This document shows positions 3,089 to 9,643 of a stretch of DNA of 21,576 nt, one piece after another. Each line of letters opens with the position of its first letter. The first letter of the stretch is position 1. The notes below the pieces were generated by a model. It did not search any database, was not told the origin of the DNA, and was given only the letters and a program-made list of their open reading frames with translations. The position numbers and the translations under genes are program-made. Origin of the DNA: a virus; the IMG/VR virus record IMGVR_UViG_3300031774_000185, positions 1 through 21,576 of that record. One strand, written 5' to 3'.

Positions 3089-3297
3089 TTGGACCTATTG
3101 GAATTACACAACGTCAAGCAGAAGAACACTTTGACTTTATTTTGAATCTAACAGATACACAACGTGTCTGTTGGAAAATTTCTCGTGAAGATGCAGGATC
3201 TGCTATGATTGTTCCTGTAAATGAAGTTTCTCCAATTCCTGACGAGTTACAAAACCAAGTAGAAGAATTTCAAAAACAGTTTATGGAGAACAAATGA
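3085..3297 (+). CDS. Small hypothetical protein
   Basis: 70 aa from the ATG at 3085, which overlaps the previous stop as ATGA; a TTG 15 bases upstream is also in frame but the overlap favours the ATG. The sequence begins MIGPIGITQRQAEEHF and contains a central hydrophobic/charged stretch (RVCWKISREDAGSAMIVPV) followed by an acidic helix-like C-terminus (ELQNQVEEFQKQFMENK). It looks like a small soluble cytoplasmic protein. The stop overlaps the next gene start (ATGA at 3294-3297), implying translational coupling. Function unknown. Confidence 0.75.
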   Translation: MIGPIGITQRQAEEHFDFILNLTDTQRVCWKISREDAGSAMIVPVNEVSPIPDELQNQVEEFQKQFMENK

Positions 3298-3464
3298 TTT
3301 TAGTATTCATTATAGTAGGACTATTATTTTTTATTATGGGTTATGGTTTATGGTTAACATTTGGACCAGGTAAGGAAGAATTGCGTGATCCTATTGACGA
3401 ACATGCTAGAATGCATGAACTAGGAATAGCACATGGACACTCACCCAAACGCAAAGACCAATGA
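3294..3464 (+). CDS. psbN: PsbN-like single-helix membrane protein
   Basis: 56 aa. Residues 1-22 form one hydrophobic helix (MILVFIIVGLLFFIMGYGLW). It is followed by LTFGPGKEELRDPIDEH, which closely follows the hallmark C-terminus of cyanobacterial/plastid PsbN: a GY/GF end of helix, T-A-F-G-P, K-E-L-x-D-P-F and an acidic EEH. PsbN is a thylakoid protein of about 43 residues, needed for photosystem II assembly and repair rather than being a core subunit. Here the usual C-terminus is extended by about 15 residues with several histidines (MHELGIAHGHSPKRKDQ). Starts and stops overlap both neighbours (ATGA). Known cyanophages carry psbA and psbD to keep photosynthesis running; a PsbN homologue would fit that strategy. 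Main doubt: the match is to one short motif. Confidence 0.72.
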   Translation: MILVFIIVGLLFFIMGYGLWLTFGPGKEELRDPIDEHARMHELGIAHGHSPKRKDQ

Positions 3465-3658
3465 TTACTAAAGAAAAACAAAGAGCACAAGTGAAATCTA
3501 AATTCTATTACATCTTTTGGGGTGTAGCAACAGCATCTGTACTATTTGGTCAATTATATGTTGGTTCTGGATATAGAATGTTTGCTCGCTCATTGAATAG
3601 GATCTTCGATACTATTGAAGTAGAAGTAAATCCTCAAAATCTACCTAGGTATTATTAA
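3461..3658 (+). CDS. One-helix membrane protein, tandem copy A
   Basis: 65 aa. A basic N-terminus (MITKEKQRAQVKSK) precedes a hydrophobic segment FYYIFWGVATASVLFGQLYV (residues ~16-35). Then comes a polar C-terminus ending in a conserved-looking block, NRIFDTIEVEVNPQNLP. Positive-inside reasoning puts the N-terminus in the cytoplasm. It resembles the following gene in order and motifs: Y-Y-x-F-W at the helix start, GQ/PQ in mid-helix, then L-(x)n-IEVEV/LEVEI and a proline. They therefore look like tandem duplicates. The neighbour upstream is the PsbN-like gene, so a thylakoid location is a guess from context. Start overlaps the previous stop (ATGA); stop shares a base with the next ATG (TAATG). 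Confidence 0.78.
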   Translation: MITKEKQRAQVKSKFYYIFWGVATASVLFGQLYVGSGYRMFARSLNRIFDTIEVEVNPQNLPRYY

Positions 3659-3837
3659 TGAGAACACAAAATAAAGAGAACTATTACTATTTCTTTTGGA
3701 TAGTTGCAATGGTTGCCTTTATAGTACCACAAGTATTTACTGCAATAGCATATAATAAACTTGCTAATATTCTTGATGCACCTTTAGAGGTTGAGATTAA
3801 AAAGATGCCACCTTATCAGGTGGAGTATATTAAGTGA
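3658..3837 (+). CDS. One-helix membrane protein, tandem copy B
   Basis: 59 aa (MRTQNKENYYYFFWIVA...). A hydrophobic helix at about residues 9-31 (YYYFFWIVAMVAFIVPQVFT) is followed by AYNKLANILDAPLEVEIKKMP and a short polar tail. The same layout as the preceding gene, including YYxFW, mid-helix PQ and the LEVEI block, suggests divergence after a tandem duplication. The ATG shares its A with the upstream TAA, and the stop overlaps the next GTG start (GTGA). No enzyme motif is present; a small membrane-associated partner protein is the most that can be inferred. Confidence 0.75.
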   Translation: MRTQNKENYYYFFWIVAMVAFIVPQVFTAIAYNKLANILDAPLEVEIKKMPPYQVEYIK

Positions 3838-4640: not shown

Positions 4641-4816
4641 TATTAAAACAAGAAGTCATTGACAAGATCCAATTAGCTATGTTACACACCAAAAAGAATG
4701 GTGATATGAACTGGTTAGATGGTGATGAGATAGATGTATGTCTTGCTGGCACATTTGCTGGTGACAAGTTTATTACTATCATTAACAGGACACGTAGCAA
4801 TACCACAAAGCAATGA
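4637..4816 (+). CDS. Small hypothetical protein
   Basis: 59 aa (MILKQEVIDKIQLAML...), overlapping its neighbours on both sides as ATGA (4637-4640 and 4813-4816). An N-terminal amphipathic helix (residues 2-18) is followed by a charged turn (NGDMNWLDGDEID), a short hydrophobic strand region (VCLAGTFAGDKFITII) and a basic tail. It looks like a compact soluble protein. I do not recognise a family. The tight overlaps and absence of a competing frame support it being real. Confidence 0.7.
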   Translation: MILKQEVIDKIQLAMLHTKKNGDMNWLDGDEIDVCLAGTFAGDKFITIINRTRSNTTKQ

Positions 4817-5433
4817 GTGAATTCCGTTACGTAGATCCTCCTAATGGTGGTTGGTTAGAAAATCGATTAGATTCTAACGAAATTGATTATGTTTGGGAAC
4901 GTGTAAAGGAGAAAGAGAGTTCTTATAAATCAAATAAACCTTTGTTAGCTGGAGATATTCACGAGAGTAAGTTATTAGAAGATCCTGATGATTGGTTTTT
5001 TAATAATGTTCTTTTAAAATGTTGTGGATCTTATAGTGATCTTTATCGTAATATGGGCAATACGATACCTATACCAGAAGGAAATTATTCATATCATATG
5101 AGAGAGTGGTGGGTAAATTATCAAAAACAAACTGAGTTTAATCCATCACACACTCATACTGGAGTTTATTCTTTTGTAATATGGTTAAAGATACCAACAG
5201 AACATGAAGAACAAAATAAAGATAATATATCTAATATGAAATTAAGATCTTCTTTTCAGTTTAATTATACTGATATATTAGGAAAAATAAGTCAGTATAA
5301 ATATGATTTGAATAAATCTTGGGAAGGAATTATGTTATTTTTTCCTTCACAATTACAACATCAGGTCTATCCATTTTATAATTGTGATGATTATAGAATT
5401 ACAGTTTCAGGAAATGTTTTAATTAAAGTATAA
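4813..5433 (+). CDS. 2OG-Fe(II) oxygenase (2OG-FeII_Oxy_5-like)
   Basis: 206 aa. Residues ~98-200 match a double-stranded beta-helix oxygenase. There is an HxH iron motif in FNPSHTHTGVYSFVIWLKIP (H113, H115), a distal histidine in FFPSQLQHQVYPF (H183), and the 2-oxoglutarate-binding arginine in DDYRITVSGNV (R195). The pattern pHxH...SGVyYl...FPS..H.V.P....RiSisgN is that of the Pfam family 2OG-FeII_Oxy_5, common in marine phages. Such enzymes couple 2-oxoglutarate decarboxylation to oxidation of a substrate (hydroxylation, demethylation, halogen or ring chemistry); the substrate here is unknown. It is the first of four oxygenase-like genes in the window and is followed 4 bases later by purS. 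Confidence 0.82.
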   Translation: MSEFRYVDPPNGGWLENRLDSNEIDYVWERVKEKESSYKSNKPLLAGDIHESKLLEDPDDWFFNNVLLKCCGSYSDLYRNMGNTIPIPEGNYSYHMREWWVNYQKQTEFNPSHTHTGVYSFVIWLKIPTEHEEQNKDNISNMKLRSSFQFNYTDILGKISQYKYDLNKSWEGIMLFFPSQLQHQVYPFYNCDDYRITVSGNVLIKV

Positions 5434-5437
5434 TATC

Positions 5438-5764
5438 ATGAGATTCAAAGCACTTGTACATGTTAGACTAAGAGGATCTGTATCTGATGCTGCTGGTAAC
5501 GCAGTGATGAAAAATACACATATGGTTGCTCCTAATCTTAAACCTCATTTGTTGAGGATTGGTAAGGCAATTGATTTTTGGTTTGATGCAGAGACTGAAG
5601 AGATTGCAAGAGAAGAGATGGATCTTCTGTCGGATAGGATGCTTGCCAATACTGTAATAGAAGATTGGGAATATAAATTAGAAGAGACAGAAGAAACTGG
5701 AATCGGAGATATATCCAATGACAATGCAGGTACCTCAAAACATGCATTGTTTGATGAATCATGA
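5438..5764 (+). CDS. purS: PurS, phosphoribosylformylglycinamidine synthase small subunit
   Basis: 108 aa. In organisms with split FGAM synthase, PurS bridges PurL and the glutaminase PurQ in the fourth step of purine synthesis. Seen here: FKALVHVRLRGSVSDAAGNAV near the N-terminus (the V-x-L-r-x-x-V-x-D-p-q-G-x-a-v pattern), then LLRIGKAIDFWFDAETEEIARE (V-r-x-G-K-x-i-e-x-x-v-d-A). The core ends with LLSDRMLANTVIEDWEYKLEE (the PurS hallmark LaNpVIEDyei). The core is the usual ~80 residues; an extra acidic tail of about 25 residues follows. Purine genes including purS are known auxiliary metabolic genes of cyanomyoviruses, thought to supply nucleotides for phage DNA. No purL or purQ is present in this window, so it would have to work with host or distant phage partners. 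Confidence 0.88.
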   Translation: MRFKALVHVRLRGSVSDAAGNAVMKNTHMVAPNLKPHLLRIGKAIDFWFDAETEEIAREEMDLLSDRMLANTVIEDWEYKLEETEETGIGDISNDNAGTSKHALFDES

Positions 5765-6882
5765 AAAAGATTGCAATTATTGGTGCTGGTAATGCAGGAT
5801 GTATTAGTGCATTACATTTTTATTATTATTCCCATGATAAGTATGAGATTGAAATCTATCATAGTCCAGGAGAACATCCAATAGAGAGAGTAGGACAGGG
5901 AACAGTAGTTCCACCTGCAGGACTTATTGCTAGTGTGTTGGATTTAAATTGGTATGCACCAGAGAATCCTATAGGTGCTACATTTAAGAGTGGTATTTTA
6001 TATGAAGGATGGGGTAAGTCTAAGGATGAATTCTTTCATCCCTTTCCAATGACTAACATGTCAATGCACTATGTTCCTCAAAAGTTATCAAATGCTGTAT
6101 TAGAATCTGGTTTATTTAAAGTTAAGCAACAAACTATAAATGATCCTGAAAAAGAAATAGATGCTGATATAATAATTGATTGTAGAGGAAGGCATAATCG
6201 AGATAAAGATAACTATGAACCACTTATCAATCCTTTAAATTCATGTCTTCTTTATCGGAAAGAGGGAAGAGATAGTGATTTAATCTATACGAGAACTGTT
6301 GCTACTCCTAATGGATGGACATTTGTTGTTCCTAATAGTGATGGTCTTTCTTATGGTTACTTGTATAATAATACTATAACATCAAAGGAAGATGCCAGAA
6401 AGGATTTCTTAGATAGATTTGATTTACCTGAAGTGGATGGTGATTTAACCTTTGAGAATTATATTGCTAAGAATGTTTGTGTAGGTGAGAGAACTTTCTT
6501 AAATGGGAATAGATGTGGATTCCTAGAACCTTTAGAAGCAACTGCTACAGGGTTCTATCAGAATGTATGTCAGGCGATTTATTGTACGACTATTGGTGCG
6601 ATACCTAGGCAAGGTGTTAATACATATGTTAGAGAGGAAATGTTTAGATTAGAAAAATTTATCCTGTGGCATTATCAATTTGGTTCAAAGTATGATACTC
6701 CTTTCTGGAAATATGCTAAATCTCTTCCATTTAATCCTGATGATAAATTTAATTATATGCTAGAGAAATCCAAGGGTATGACTAACTTAGAAATAGATAA
6801 ACAGTATGATCCCAAGGTTAGTGAGTTGTATGGGCAATGGTCATATCTTAGTTTTAAAAATTGGTATGGACATCAACTATGA
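5761..6882 (+). CDS. Flavin-dependent tryptophan-halogenase-like protein
   Basis: 373 aa. An N-terminal FAD-binding Rossmann motif (KKIAIIGAGNAGCISALHF, residues 2-20) is followed by a GQGT..P region. TFKSGILYEGW (74-84) carries a lysine (K76) at the position of the catalytic Lys of PrnA/RebH (K79). Then come DIIIDCRG (136-143), GWTFVVPNSDGLSYGY (185-200), GFLEPLEATATGFYQN (253-268) matching the FLEPLESTS halogenase block with its conserved Glu, and FILWHYQFGSKYDTPFWKYA matching the C-terminal HY...R.DTPFW motif. The family chlorinates or brominates tryptophan-like substrates using FADH2. Odd points: it is well short of the ~500-540 residues of characterised enzymes, and the WxWxIP motif reads GWTFVVP, so halogenation is not assured. 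It may be a divergent FAD monooxygenase. ATGA overlaps link it to purS and the next oxygenase. Confidence 0.85.
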   Translation: MKKIAIIGAGNAGCISALHFYYYSHDKYEIEIYHSPGEHPIERVGQGTVVPPAGLIASVLDLNWYAPENPIGATFKSGILYEGWGKSKDEFFHPFPMTNMSMHYVPQKLSNAVLESGLFKVKQQTINDPEKEIDADIIIDCRGRHNRDKDNYEPLINPLNSCLLYRKEGRDSDLIYTRTVATPNGWTFVVPNSDGLSYGYLYNNTITSKEDARKDFLDRFDLPEVDGDLTFENYIAKNVCVGERTFLNGNRCGFLEPLEATATGFYQNVCQAIYCTTIGAIPRQGVNTYVREEMFRLEKFILWHYQFGSKYDTPFWKYAKSLPFNPDDKFNYMLEKSKGMTNLEIDKQYDPKVSELYGQWSYLSFKNWYGHQL

Positions 6883-7505
6883 GATTATCTAAGATCAAAC
6901 ACCCTAGTGGTGGTGATGTAATTTTTGATAGAATTAGTGGATTCTTATCTCCAGAGAAAGAGGATATTATAGAAGAGTATTTTTTAACGGTAAGACCAAG
7001 GTCAAATAATAACTTTCCTTGGTTCTATCAACCACAGACGGTATCGAATTCTGAAAATACTATATTTGATGATTTTGGATTTCATACACATAATTTTTTA
7101 TTGGAAGGTGAAATCCAATCTCCTTATATGGAAGATATATGGACTTTAGTTGATCTGGAAAAATTCATGAAGGAATATGGATTGGGGGATCAAGTATATC
7201 ATGCTCATGTTAATTTGTTCTTACAACGTGATCGTGATGTAGTTCCTCATCCTCATATAGATTTTAGAAAGGTGAAGCACACTGTAATATTATATTATGT
7301 TAATGACTGTGATGGAGACACTATTTTTTATAACAAATGTGAGAATGATAGTTTAATGGATGTAGAGGAGTGGAAAAGAGAATCTCCAAAGAAAGGTGAT
7401 TTTGTAGTATTTGATGGATCGATATATCATAGCCCTTGTTGTCCAGTAGAGAATACAAGAAGATGTACATTAAATTTTGATTGTAAGGTAGTTGACATTT
7501 CCTGA
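6879..7505 (+). CDS. 2OG-Fe(II) oxygenase-like protein
   Basis: 208 aa from the ATG at 6879, which overlaps the halogenase stop (ATGA); a TTG 18 bases upstream is less likely. The C-terminal half has the iron triad of a cupin-type dioxygenase. HPHIDF gives H126 and D128, KKGDFVVFDGSIYHSP gives H184, and VENTRRCTLNF gives the 2OG arginine (R194 or R195). The arrangement resembles prolyl/aspartyl-hydroxylase-like phage oxygenases (2OG-FeII_Oxy_3 type). The N-terminal half (GFLSPEKEDIIEEYF...PWFYQP) is typical of the same superfamily in cyanophages. Coupling to the halogenase suggests joint expression. Substrate unknown. The promoter for the next gene begins inside its last codons. Confidence 0.8.
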   Translation: MRLSKIKHPSGGDVIFDRISGFLSPEKEDIIEEYFLTVRPRSNNNFPWFYQPQTVSNSENTIFDDFGFHTHNFLLEGEIQSPYMEDIWTLVDLEKFMKEYGLGDQVYHAHVNLFLQRDRDVVPHPHIDFRKVKHTVILYYVNDCDGDTIFYNKCENDSLMDVEEWKRESPKKGDFVVFDGSIYHSPCCPVENTRRCTLNFDCKVVDIS

Positions 7506-8762: not shown

Positions 8763-8994
8763 AAAGACAAGGATTGATAAGAAACCAGTATTTACTAAAG
8801 TTAAGTCTGGTGATCTATGGGAACTAGGTAATGGTAATGGTAATATAAAGAATACAATGCCTTGGTATCTCCATCCAGTTATGAAGGATACATTTAATAG
8901 GTCATGGTTCAGAGACTATGATGATGTATGTAAACAAATTTCACGATTAAAATTAAGACCAGACCAATATACACTAACAAAATATAATGGGTGA
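8710..8994 (+). CDS. Small basic protein with uncertain start, overlapping the acidic gene
   Basis: This frame is open from an ATG at 8539 to the stop at 8994 (151 codons), but the first ~75 codons lie over the acidic gene and read as Ser/Thr/Lys/Arg-rich low complexity, as expected for its shadow. From about 8763 the translation becomes protein-like (KTRIDKKPVFTKVKSGDLWEL, then MPWYLHPVMKDTFNRSWFRDYDDVCKQ). Hence a real gene ends here, but its start is unclear. Options are GTG at 8710 (95 aa, given here), ATT at 8773 after GAAGG, ATG at 8857 (45 aa), ATG at 8539, or a frameshift from the acidic gene. The stop overlaps the next ATG (8987) by 8 bases. Function unknown. Confidence 0.5.
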   Translation: MKQPKKTGKTSGTTAKVRKTRIDKKPVFTKVKSGDLWELGNGNGNIKNTMPWYLHPVMKDTFNRSWFRDYDDVCKQISRLKLRPDQYTLTKYNG

Positions 8995-9643
8995 ACCAAT
9001 GATTAAGAATGAACCTTTTCCATATGTTTTGATTGATGATTTTTATGATCAATCTGAATTGGATGGTATTTGGGAAGAACTAGACTACTTGTGTAATCCA
9101 AAAAGAATGGGTAGATCTTCTATTGAACGTGGTGCTGCAGCAAATCCTGATGAAAATGGTGTTTACCAATCCCTAAAAAATACATGGGATTTGCGGTTGG
9201 ATAGTTTTTTTATCTCAAGAGATTCTTCTAATATTCTCGAAATTAATAGGAAATTATTGGATCAGGAAATATTTAAGAATCATCCTCATTGGTTATTTAA
9301 TCATCTTGATGCTCTTAATGAAGATAATACTCAAATTTTATACTATGAAAATAACGATGAATACAAACCACATAGAGATCTTGCAAGATTGACATCTATT
9401 ACTTGGTTTTATAGAGAACCAAAAAAATTTACTGGTGGAAATTTAAGATTTCCTTCGTTTGACATGGAAATTGAGTGTAAACATAATAGACTTATAATAT
9501 TTCCATCATCAATACATCATGGAGTAGATAAAATTAGTATGGAAGAAAAAGATATGGGTAAAAAACTTGGTAGATTTACTATGACACAGTTCCTATCTTG
9601 TGCAGAAAGACCAGATATGTTACCAATGAATATACCTTTATAA
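8987..9643 (+). CDS. 2OG-Fe(II) oxygenase-like protein
   Basis: 218 aa. YENNDEYKPHRDLARLTSITWF contains the HxD motif (H129, D131). A GGNLRFPSF strand follows (F-x-G-G-x-L-x-F pattern), then NRLIIFPSSIHHGVDKI with the distal histidine (H177 or H178) and GRFTMTQFL with the 2OG arginine (R196). This full HxD...GG.L.F...H...R order is characteristic of the prolyl-4-hydroxylase-like oxygenases. The N-terminus (PFPYVLIDDFYDQSELDGIWEEL) is the usual iron-oxygenase lead-in. An ATG at 8999 is an alternative start. The late promoter for the structural genes overlaps its stop codon. It is the fourth oxygenase-like gene of the window; substrate unknown. Confidence 0.83.
   Translation: MGEPMIKNEPFPYVLIDDFYDQSELDGIWEELDYLCNPKRMGRSSIERGAAANPDENGVYQSLKNTWDLRLDSFFISRDSSNILEINRKLLDQEIFKNHPHWLFNHLDALNEDNTQILYYENNDEYKPHRDLARLTSITWFYREPKKFTGGNLRFPSFDMEIECKHNRLIIFPSSIHHGVDKISMEEKDMGKKLGRFTMTQFLSCAERPDMLPMNIPL

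Follow-up and report, generated by a model that had tools for sequence, protein, structure and literature searches.

A histidine-tailed PsbN-like protein of cyanophages with tailed relatives in Prochlorococcus and Synechococcus

Introduction

We analysed a virus contig of 21,576 nucleotides (hereafter the window) and found that it encodes a small membrane protein that, as judged from profiles and phylogeny, is a homologue of photosystem II protein PsbN but no copy of the ordinary host PsbN. It belongs to a separate, histidine-tailed clade that is under strong purifying selection in phages, and its nearest cellular relatives appear to be a tailed paralogue of Prochlorococcus and Synechococcus. 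Some of the hosts that carry this paralogue have lost canonical psbN.

Phage PsbN as such is not new, since Sullivan et al. reported T4-GC163 in 2010 as 'a possible photosystem II PsbN', present in each of six Prochlorococcus phages and in no others (PMC3037559). Later papers record psbN from cyanomyophages and note its abundance among the photosynthesis genes of viruses (PMC7029224, PMC8940887). In surveys of marine viral metagenomes, which treat psbN as one gene, it counts as one of the photosynthesis genes with the highest abundance (PMC8940887). The suspicion voiced in the initial annotation, that the gene was already recorded in other cyanophages, was therefore correct; P-TIM68, for instance, carries it as 'putative photosystem II protein PsbN'. 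In the literature searched we found no report of T4-GC163 as a mix of two lineages, no description of a tailed paralogue in hosts, and no paper that pairs 'PsbN-like' with phage or sodU with sodT. The window gene belongs to this known family, the label of which appears to cover two lineages, with the window in the tailed one. If so, viral psbN counts may mix two functions.

The window gene and its product

The gene (3294-3464, forward strand, as are its parts, its two neighbours and gp5) encodes the 56-residue protein MILVFIIVGLLFFIMGYGLWLTFGPGKEELRDPIDEHARMHELGIAHGHSPKRKDQ, which consists of one membrane helix, followed by TFGPGKEELRDPIDEH and a histidine tail, exactly as first described. AlphaFold2 predicts the membrane helix at residues 2-23 (3297-3362), with pLDDT above 90 across residues 1-20. 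Pfam PF02468 and hhalign to canonical PsbN place the PsbN signature TFGPGKEELRDPIDEH at residues 22-37 (3357-3404), and column counts and pN/pS delimit the tailed-clade core DEHARMHELGIAHGH, which contains H37, H41, H47 and H49, at residues 35-49 (3396-3440). The remainder, SPKRKDQ (3441-3461), is variable when compared with phage relatives. AlphaFold2 also proposes a weaker, short helix at residues 33-43, the tail being of low confidence. In such a helix H37 and H41 would be separated by one turn, H47 and H49 coming next, an arrangement that would be compatible with binding of a metal or cofactor. The window protein sequence had no match among solved structures, and a profile of the host tailed proteins gave weak matches to these (the best a photosystem I subunit XI chain, E 0.005; PsbJ, E 0.6).

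Upstream lies a gene of PHROG 375, 'Phd-like antitoxin' (T4-GC342; 3094-3297), and downstream one for a PHROG 2000 small membrane protein (T4-GC158; 3461-3658). Both boundaries are ATGA overlaps, of the psbN ATG with the upstream stop and of the psbN TGA with the downstream ATG, and the gene is translationally coupled to both neighbours in an operon-like arrangement. The PHROG 2000 proteins encoded at 3461-3658 and 3658-3837 are adjacent and 32% identical, likely a tandem duplication. Elsewhere in the window a tryptophan-halogenase-like protein (5761-6882; PF04820, 107 bits) adjoins PurS and 2OG-Fe(II) oxygenase genes, and 2OG-Fe(II) oxygenase-like genes at 4813-5433, 6861-7505 (below the Pfam cut-off) and 8987-9643 occupy one 5-kb stretch.

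The open reading frame is a genuine coding gene under selection, not a chance one, since pN/pS among 67 phage relatives is as low as 0.083 over residues 2-49. Partitioned, it amounts to 0.011 for the core (residues 34-49), 0.082 for the helix and 0.241 for the linker, which makes the tail core the most conserved part of the phage tailed protein. In alignment-based column counts of eight groups, the four histidines H37, H41, H47 and H49 are present in 63/63 short-form and 8/8 long-form phage sequences, and in hosts in 14/14 (type A), 18-19/19 (B), 9/9 (C) and 9-11/11 (D) sequences, the types being introduced below. The extra histidine-rich tail that had been noticed at the outset is real and conserved in phage relatives as well as in the host paralogue, its four histidines being nearly invariant across the tailed clade.

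Relation to canonical PsbN

The proposed search with Pfam PF02468 gave 30.7 bits (E 2.9e-7, residues 2-37), which passes the curated cut-off of 25 bits, whereas the NCBIfam PsbN equivalog NF009650 gave 33.5 bits, with a cut-off of 70 bits and 93.3 bits for canonical host PsbN. The claimed homology with PsbN hence stands at the level of the Pfam family, but not at that of the equivalog. Profile-profile comparison by hhalign aligned the phage tailed family to canonical PsbN with a probability of 96.9% (E 1.5e-10) and to the host tailed family with 99.7% (E 5e-26). Host tailed and canonical PsbN profiles aligned with 97.6% over 43 columns, N-terminus included, and a control, the unrelated small membrane protein of the next gene, gave 0.35%.

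Like canonical PsbN, the window protein has a single N-terminal membrane helix and then FGP...L.DP. Canonical PsbN is about 43-50 aa long and ends in D[DE]H[DE]D; the window protein instead continues past H37 for twelve more core-tail residues and the variable end. Its DEHARMHELGIAHGH corresponds to the tailed-clade core EHA[RK][ML]H[EK]LGIAHxH with all four histidines.

A phylogeny of 161 sequences separated canonical PsbN and phage form I (see below) from all tailed sequences, the window among the latter, with support 100/99, in a tree that has only 78 columns, long branches that meet at this split and a bootstrap that had not fully settled. Trees and profiles draw on some 50 aligned residues. 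In the same tree the tailed phages grouped together next to the host sequences, with weak support (82/41), so that the tree does not give the donor host type or the number of acquisitions.

Phage lineages and loci

T4-GC163 appears to combine two lineages, canonical-ended and tailed. The first (P-HM1, P-HM2, P-SSM4, P-RSM4) has the canonical D[DE]H[DE]D end, lacks a tail and clusters with cyanobacterial PsbN; the second (the window, P-SSM2, P-SSM7, P-TIM68 and about 80 IMG/VR contigs) ends in EHA[RK]MHELGIAHGH. Three forms were distinguished by architecture. Form I (P-HM1, P-HM2, P-SSM4, MED4-213, P-RSM6, P-TIM40, S-SSM4) has an N-terminal MIFLSCPPVYTLPGTW module, the helix and a canonical ...DEHDD end, the canonical end occurring without the module in P-RSM4 and S-SSM7. 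Form II (P-SSM2, P-SSM7, P-TIM68, several single-cell viruses) has a module like that of form I as well as the tail, and in form III, which comprises the window and the 80 IMG/VR loci kept, the tail is present and the module absent. Distant relatives were reached by tblastn with an artificial hybrid query, and one host search started from a PsbN query sequence; our conclusions are drawn from the natural sequences that these queries retrieved. One viral contig (L050) carries two tailed psbN genes, at 3729 and 7360, 3.6 kb apart. The T4-GC646 proteins (L142, L143 and L144, each at 1501-1668) have the MxFxSxPSVYTLPGTW module of forms I and II without a PsbN end.

Published exclusivity to Prochlorococcus phages fails, because Synechococcus phages S-SSM4, S-SSM6b, S-TIM4 and S-SSM7 carry the gene, which is also present in metaG-MbCM1.

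The gp5 region of the window (gp5 baseplate hub/tail lysozyme, 287-2836) matches T4-like cyanophages, best P-SSM7. The window shares the gene order gp5, GC341, GC342, GC163, GC158 with P-SSM7, which has an annotated T4-GC163 member, although P-SSM7 has a sulfotransferase gene after gp5. Since gp5 fixes the position, the window locus is that of P-SSM7. Here the flanks are closely similar but the 5' halves of psbN completely different, and the canonical-ended copy of P-RSM4 sits near the same locus, from which we conclude that psbN has been reshuffled at one site. A different position is typical of the IMG/VR relatives, most of which, where neighbours were recognised, have the gene within the replication block, close to gp44, dam, gp62 and regA. 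A PHROG 2000 (T4-GC158) gene accompanies psbN at several loci.

The host tailed paralogue

Many of the 400 host-family genomes searched with the tailed phage protein contain tailed proteins. Read at some 55 loci, these fall into four types, here named A to D, with a putative assignment, based on genome size and sequence, to Prochlorococcus clades or Synechococcus. Type A reads DEHAKMHELGIAHGHGG or ...AHGHSPK, type B ends in ...AHGHNHHNHNEAEHIH, type C, from Synechococcus-sized genomes, reads EEHARLHKLGIAHSHQG, and type D is short, with ...GIAHTHD; canonical host PsbN ends at DDHDD or DDHED. Among 390 genomes across the class, 11 matched at E 1e-8, a threshold that may miss type C, and all 11 are 1.7-1.9 Mb in size. 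A phage-specific tail was rejected, the genome search having found the tail in hosts. The suggested comparison with hosts and other cyanophages did yield PsbN relatives in both, but among host genes it is the tailed paralogue, not canonical psbN, that is closest.

At ten type B loci, two of which are the same gene, an hli (high-light-inducible) gene lies 325-433 bp downstream of the tailed gene. At L175:1244-3287 and L193:4957-6983 the host tailed psbN adjoins sodT, with sodN and sodX close by.

In G007, G060, G090, G149 and G176 the single PF02468 match is the tailed gene. A motif search around psbH (loci L183-L186 and L190, from G149, G176, G090, G060 and G007 respectively) detected no psbN in these five but detected it in six other genomes. 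The psbI-psbH interval, read whole in G060 (L186) and G007 (L190), lacks psbN, which is present between psbI and psbH in control genome G071. Two hosts keep only the tailed gene, as read from this interval, and for three more the motif and profile searches point the same way; further genomes have the same single weak PF02468 match, from the profile search alone. Hosts that keep only the tailed gene provide a direct test of PsbN replacement.

Possible function

We lean, with somewhat more belief than doubt, towards a diversified PsbN that aids photosystem II assembly or repair during infection and has a cytoplasmic, possibly metal-binding tail. It would be a thylakoid membrane protein with one helix, from a tailed PsbN branch common to cyanophages and their picocyanobacterial hosts, the phage gene most likely having been acquired from hosts, a direction of transfer that we infer. 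The helix would act as membrane anchor, and the PsbN signature and tail would face the cytoplasm, by analogy with plant PsbN, the functional C-terminus of which is stromal (PMC4823308, PMC4754418). Most likely the tailed protein would assist when D1 and D2 precomplexes unite to a photosystem II reaction centre or, alternatively, when damaged centres are repaired, at a time when the phage sustains photosynthesis in its host. With its four conserved histidines (HxxxH...HxH) the tail probably binds a metal or cofactor, and such a site would tune this step. Plant PsbN is needed for reaction-centre assembly and for recovery from photoinhibition (PMC4823308, PMC4754418), which suggests a photosystem II role of the tailed protein in infection and makes phage control of photosystem II assembly plausible. 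Also in favour of this reading are the Pfam and profile matches to PsbN, the placement in the tree, the conserved histidines, the hosts with the tailed gene as their sole PF02468 match and the hli genes near type B. Against a PsbN role count the wide margin by which the NF009650 cut-off is missed, the altered canonical end and the type A neighbour, which is sodT and no photosystem gene. Furthermore, a Synechocystis psbH psbN double mutant resembled the psbH mutant alone (PMC4823308), hence PsbN may matter little in cyanobacteria.

Rather unlikely, in our judgement, is that the tailed clade constitutes a membrane protein that handles nickel or some other transition metal, either supplying the Ni-SOD system or buffering metal, and that phages would use against oxidative stress, not for photosystem II. 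In all eight type A loci examined the tailed gene and sodT, the predicted nickel transporter for SodN (PMC4284471), are on the same strand with gaps of 161-254 bp, and in two of the eight a sodN-sodX pair lies within 1.4 kb; types B, C and D, at the loci read, have other neighbours than sodT. One type D gene has an ABC-3 metal permease gene 794 bp away. The four invariant histidines and the further HxH ends of most tailed subtypes are consistent with metal binding, but no metal-binding family matched above cut-off, and helix and signature are still PsbN-like. Among Synechococcus-sized genomes, 7 of 9 that carry the tailed gene have Ni-SOD, as against 4 of 15 that lack it (Fisher p 0.03), which is weak evidence, since common descent and the choice of control genomes by hand confound the test; Prochlorococcus G001 and G005 have sodN and no tailed gene. 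A general link with Ni-SOD was rejected, since sodT adjoins type A only and sodN occurs without the tailed gene. A nickel-related role, which sodT beside type A suggests, is kept as a rival because the context is mixed, with sodT in type A and hli in type B.

Unlikely as a whole is a scheme in which the tailed clade, as a separate membrane metalloprotein that binds a transition metal through HxxxH...HxH, would link the supply of metal, possibly nickel, or the defence against oxidative stress to photosystem II repair. One Prochlorococcus lineage would then have it in place of canonical PsbN, and cyanophages would spread and reshuffle it.

It seems quite improbable that the gene product is a small membrane protein of the phage with the host membrane or its PHROG 2000 neighbour as target, a merely PsbN-like motif and no tie to photosynthesis. 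The tailed gene and PHROG 2000 do occur together at more than one locus, the short phage form has its membrane segment replaced, and the module added to the long form recurs in non-PsbN phage proteins (T4-GC646); on the other hand, selection has preserved the PsbN end and tail, and the protein has cellular homologues outside phages. That the phage simply carries an ordinary host PsbN to which an irrelevant tail is attached, as the Pfam match and the PsbN label in the literature might suggest, is largely refuted by the tree, which sets the clade apart from canonical PsbN, and by a tail core that is the most conserved part and occurs in the host paralogue, and we consider it highly improbable.

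Comparison with known PsbN proteins

The window protein, in our preferred reading a diversified PsbN, shares with canonical cyanobacterial and plastid PsbN the N-terminal membrane helix and an FGP...L.DP..[DE]H end, and D32 and H37 (window numbering) are invariant in canonical PsbN as well. In contrast, the canonical GPPxxxLDDPFDDHED end is altered in the window protein, which has a tail after the histidine and lacks the invariant DD/ED end. With the tailed paralogue of Prochlorococcus and some Synechococcus it has the core EHA[RK][ML]H[EK]LGIAHxH in common. Phage and host tailed proteins differ at the N-terminus, which is MET..TDPTLL in hosts and either a short hydrophobic start or the MIFLSxPSVYxLPGTW module in phages. 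Most phage relatives end in ...AYEMSGKLxHxHD, whereas the window protein beyond residue 49 has the shorter SPKRKDQ. Its AHGHSPK resembles that of hosts G007 and G064, and the AHGHGGNxxAYEMSGKL of other phages that of hosts such as G060 and G149.
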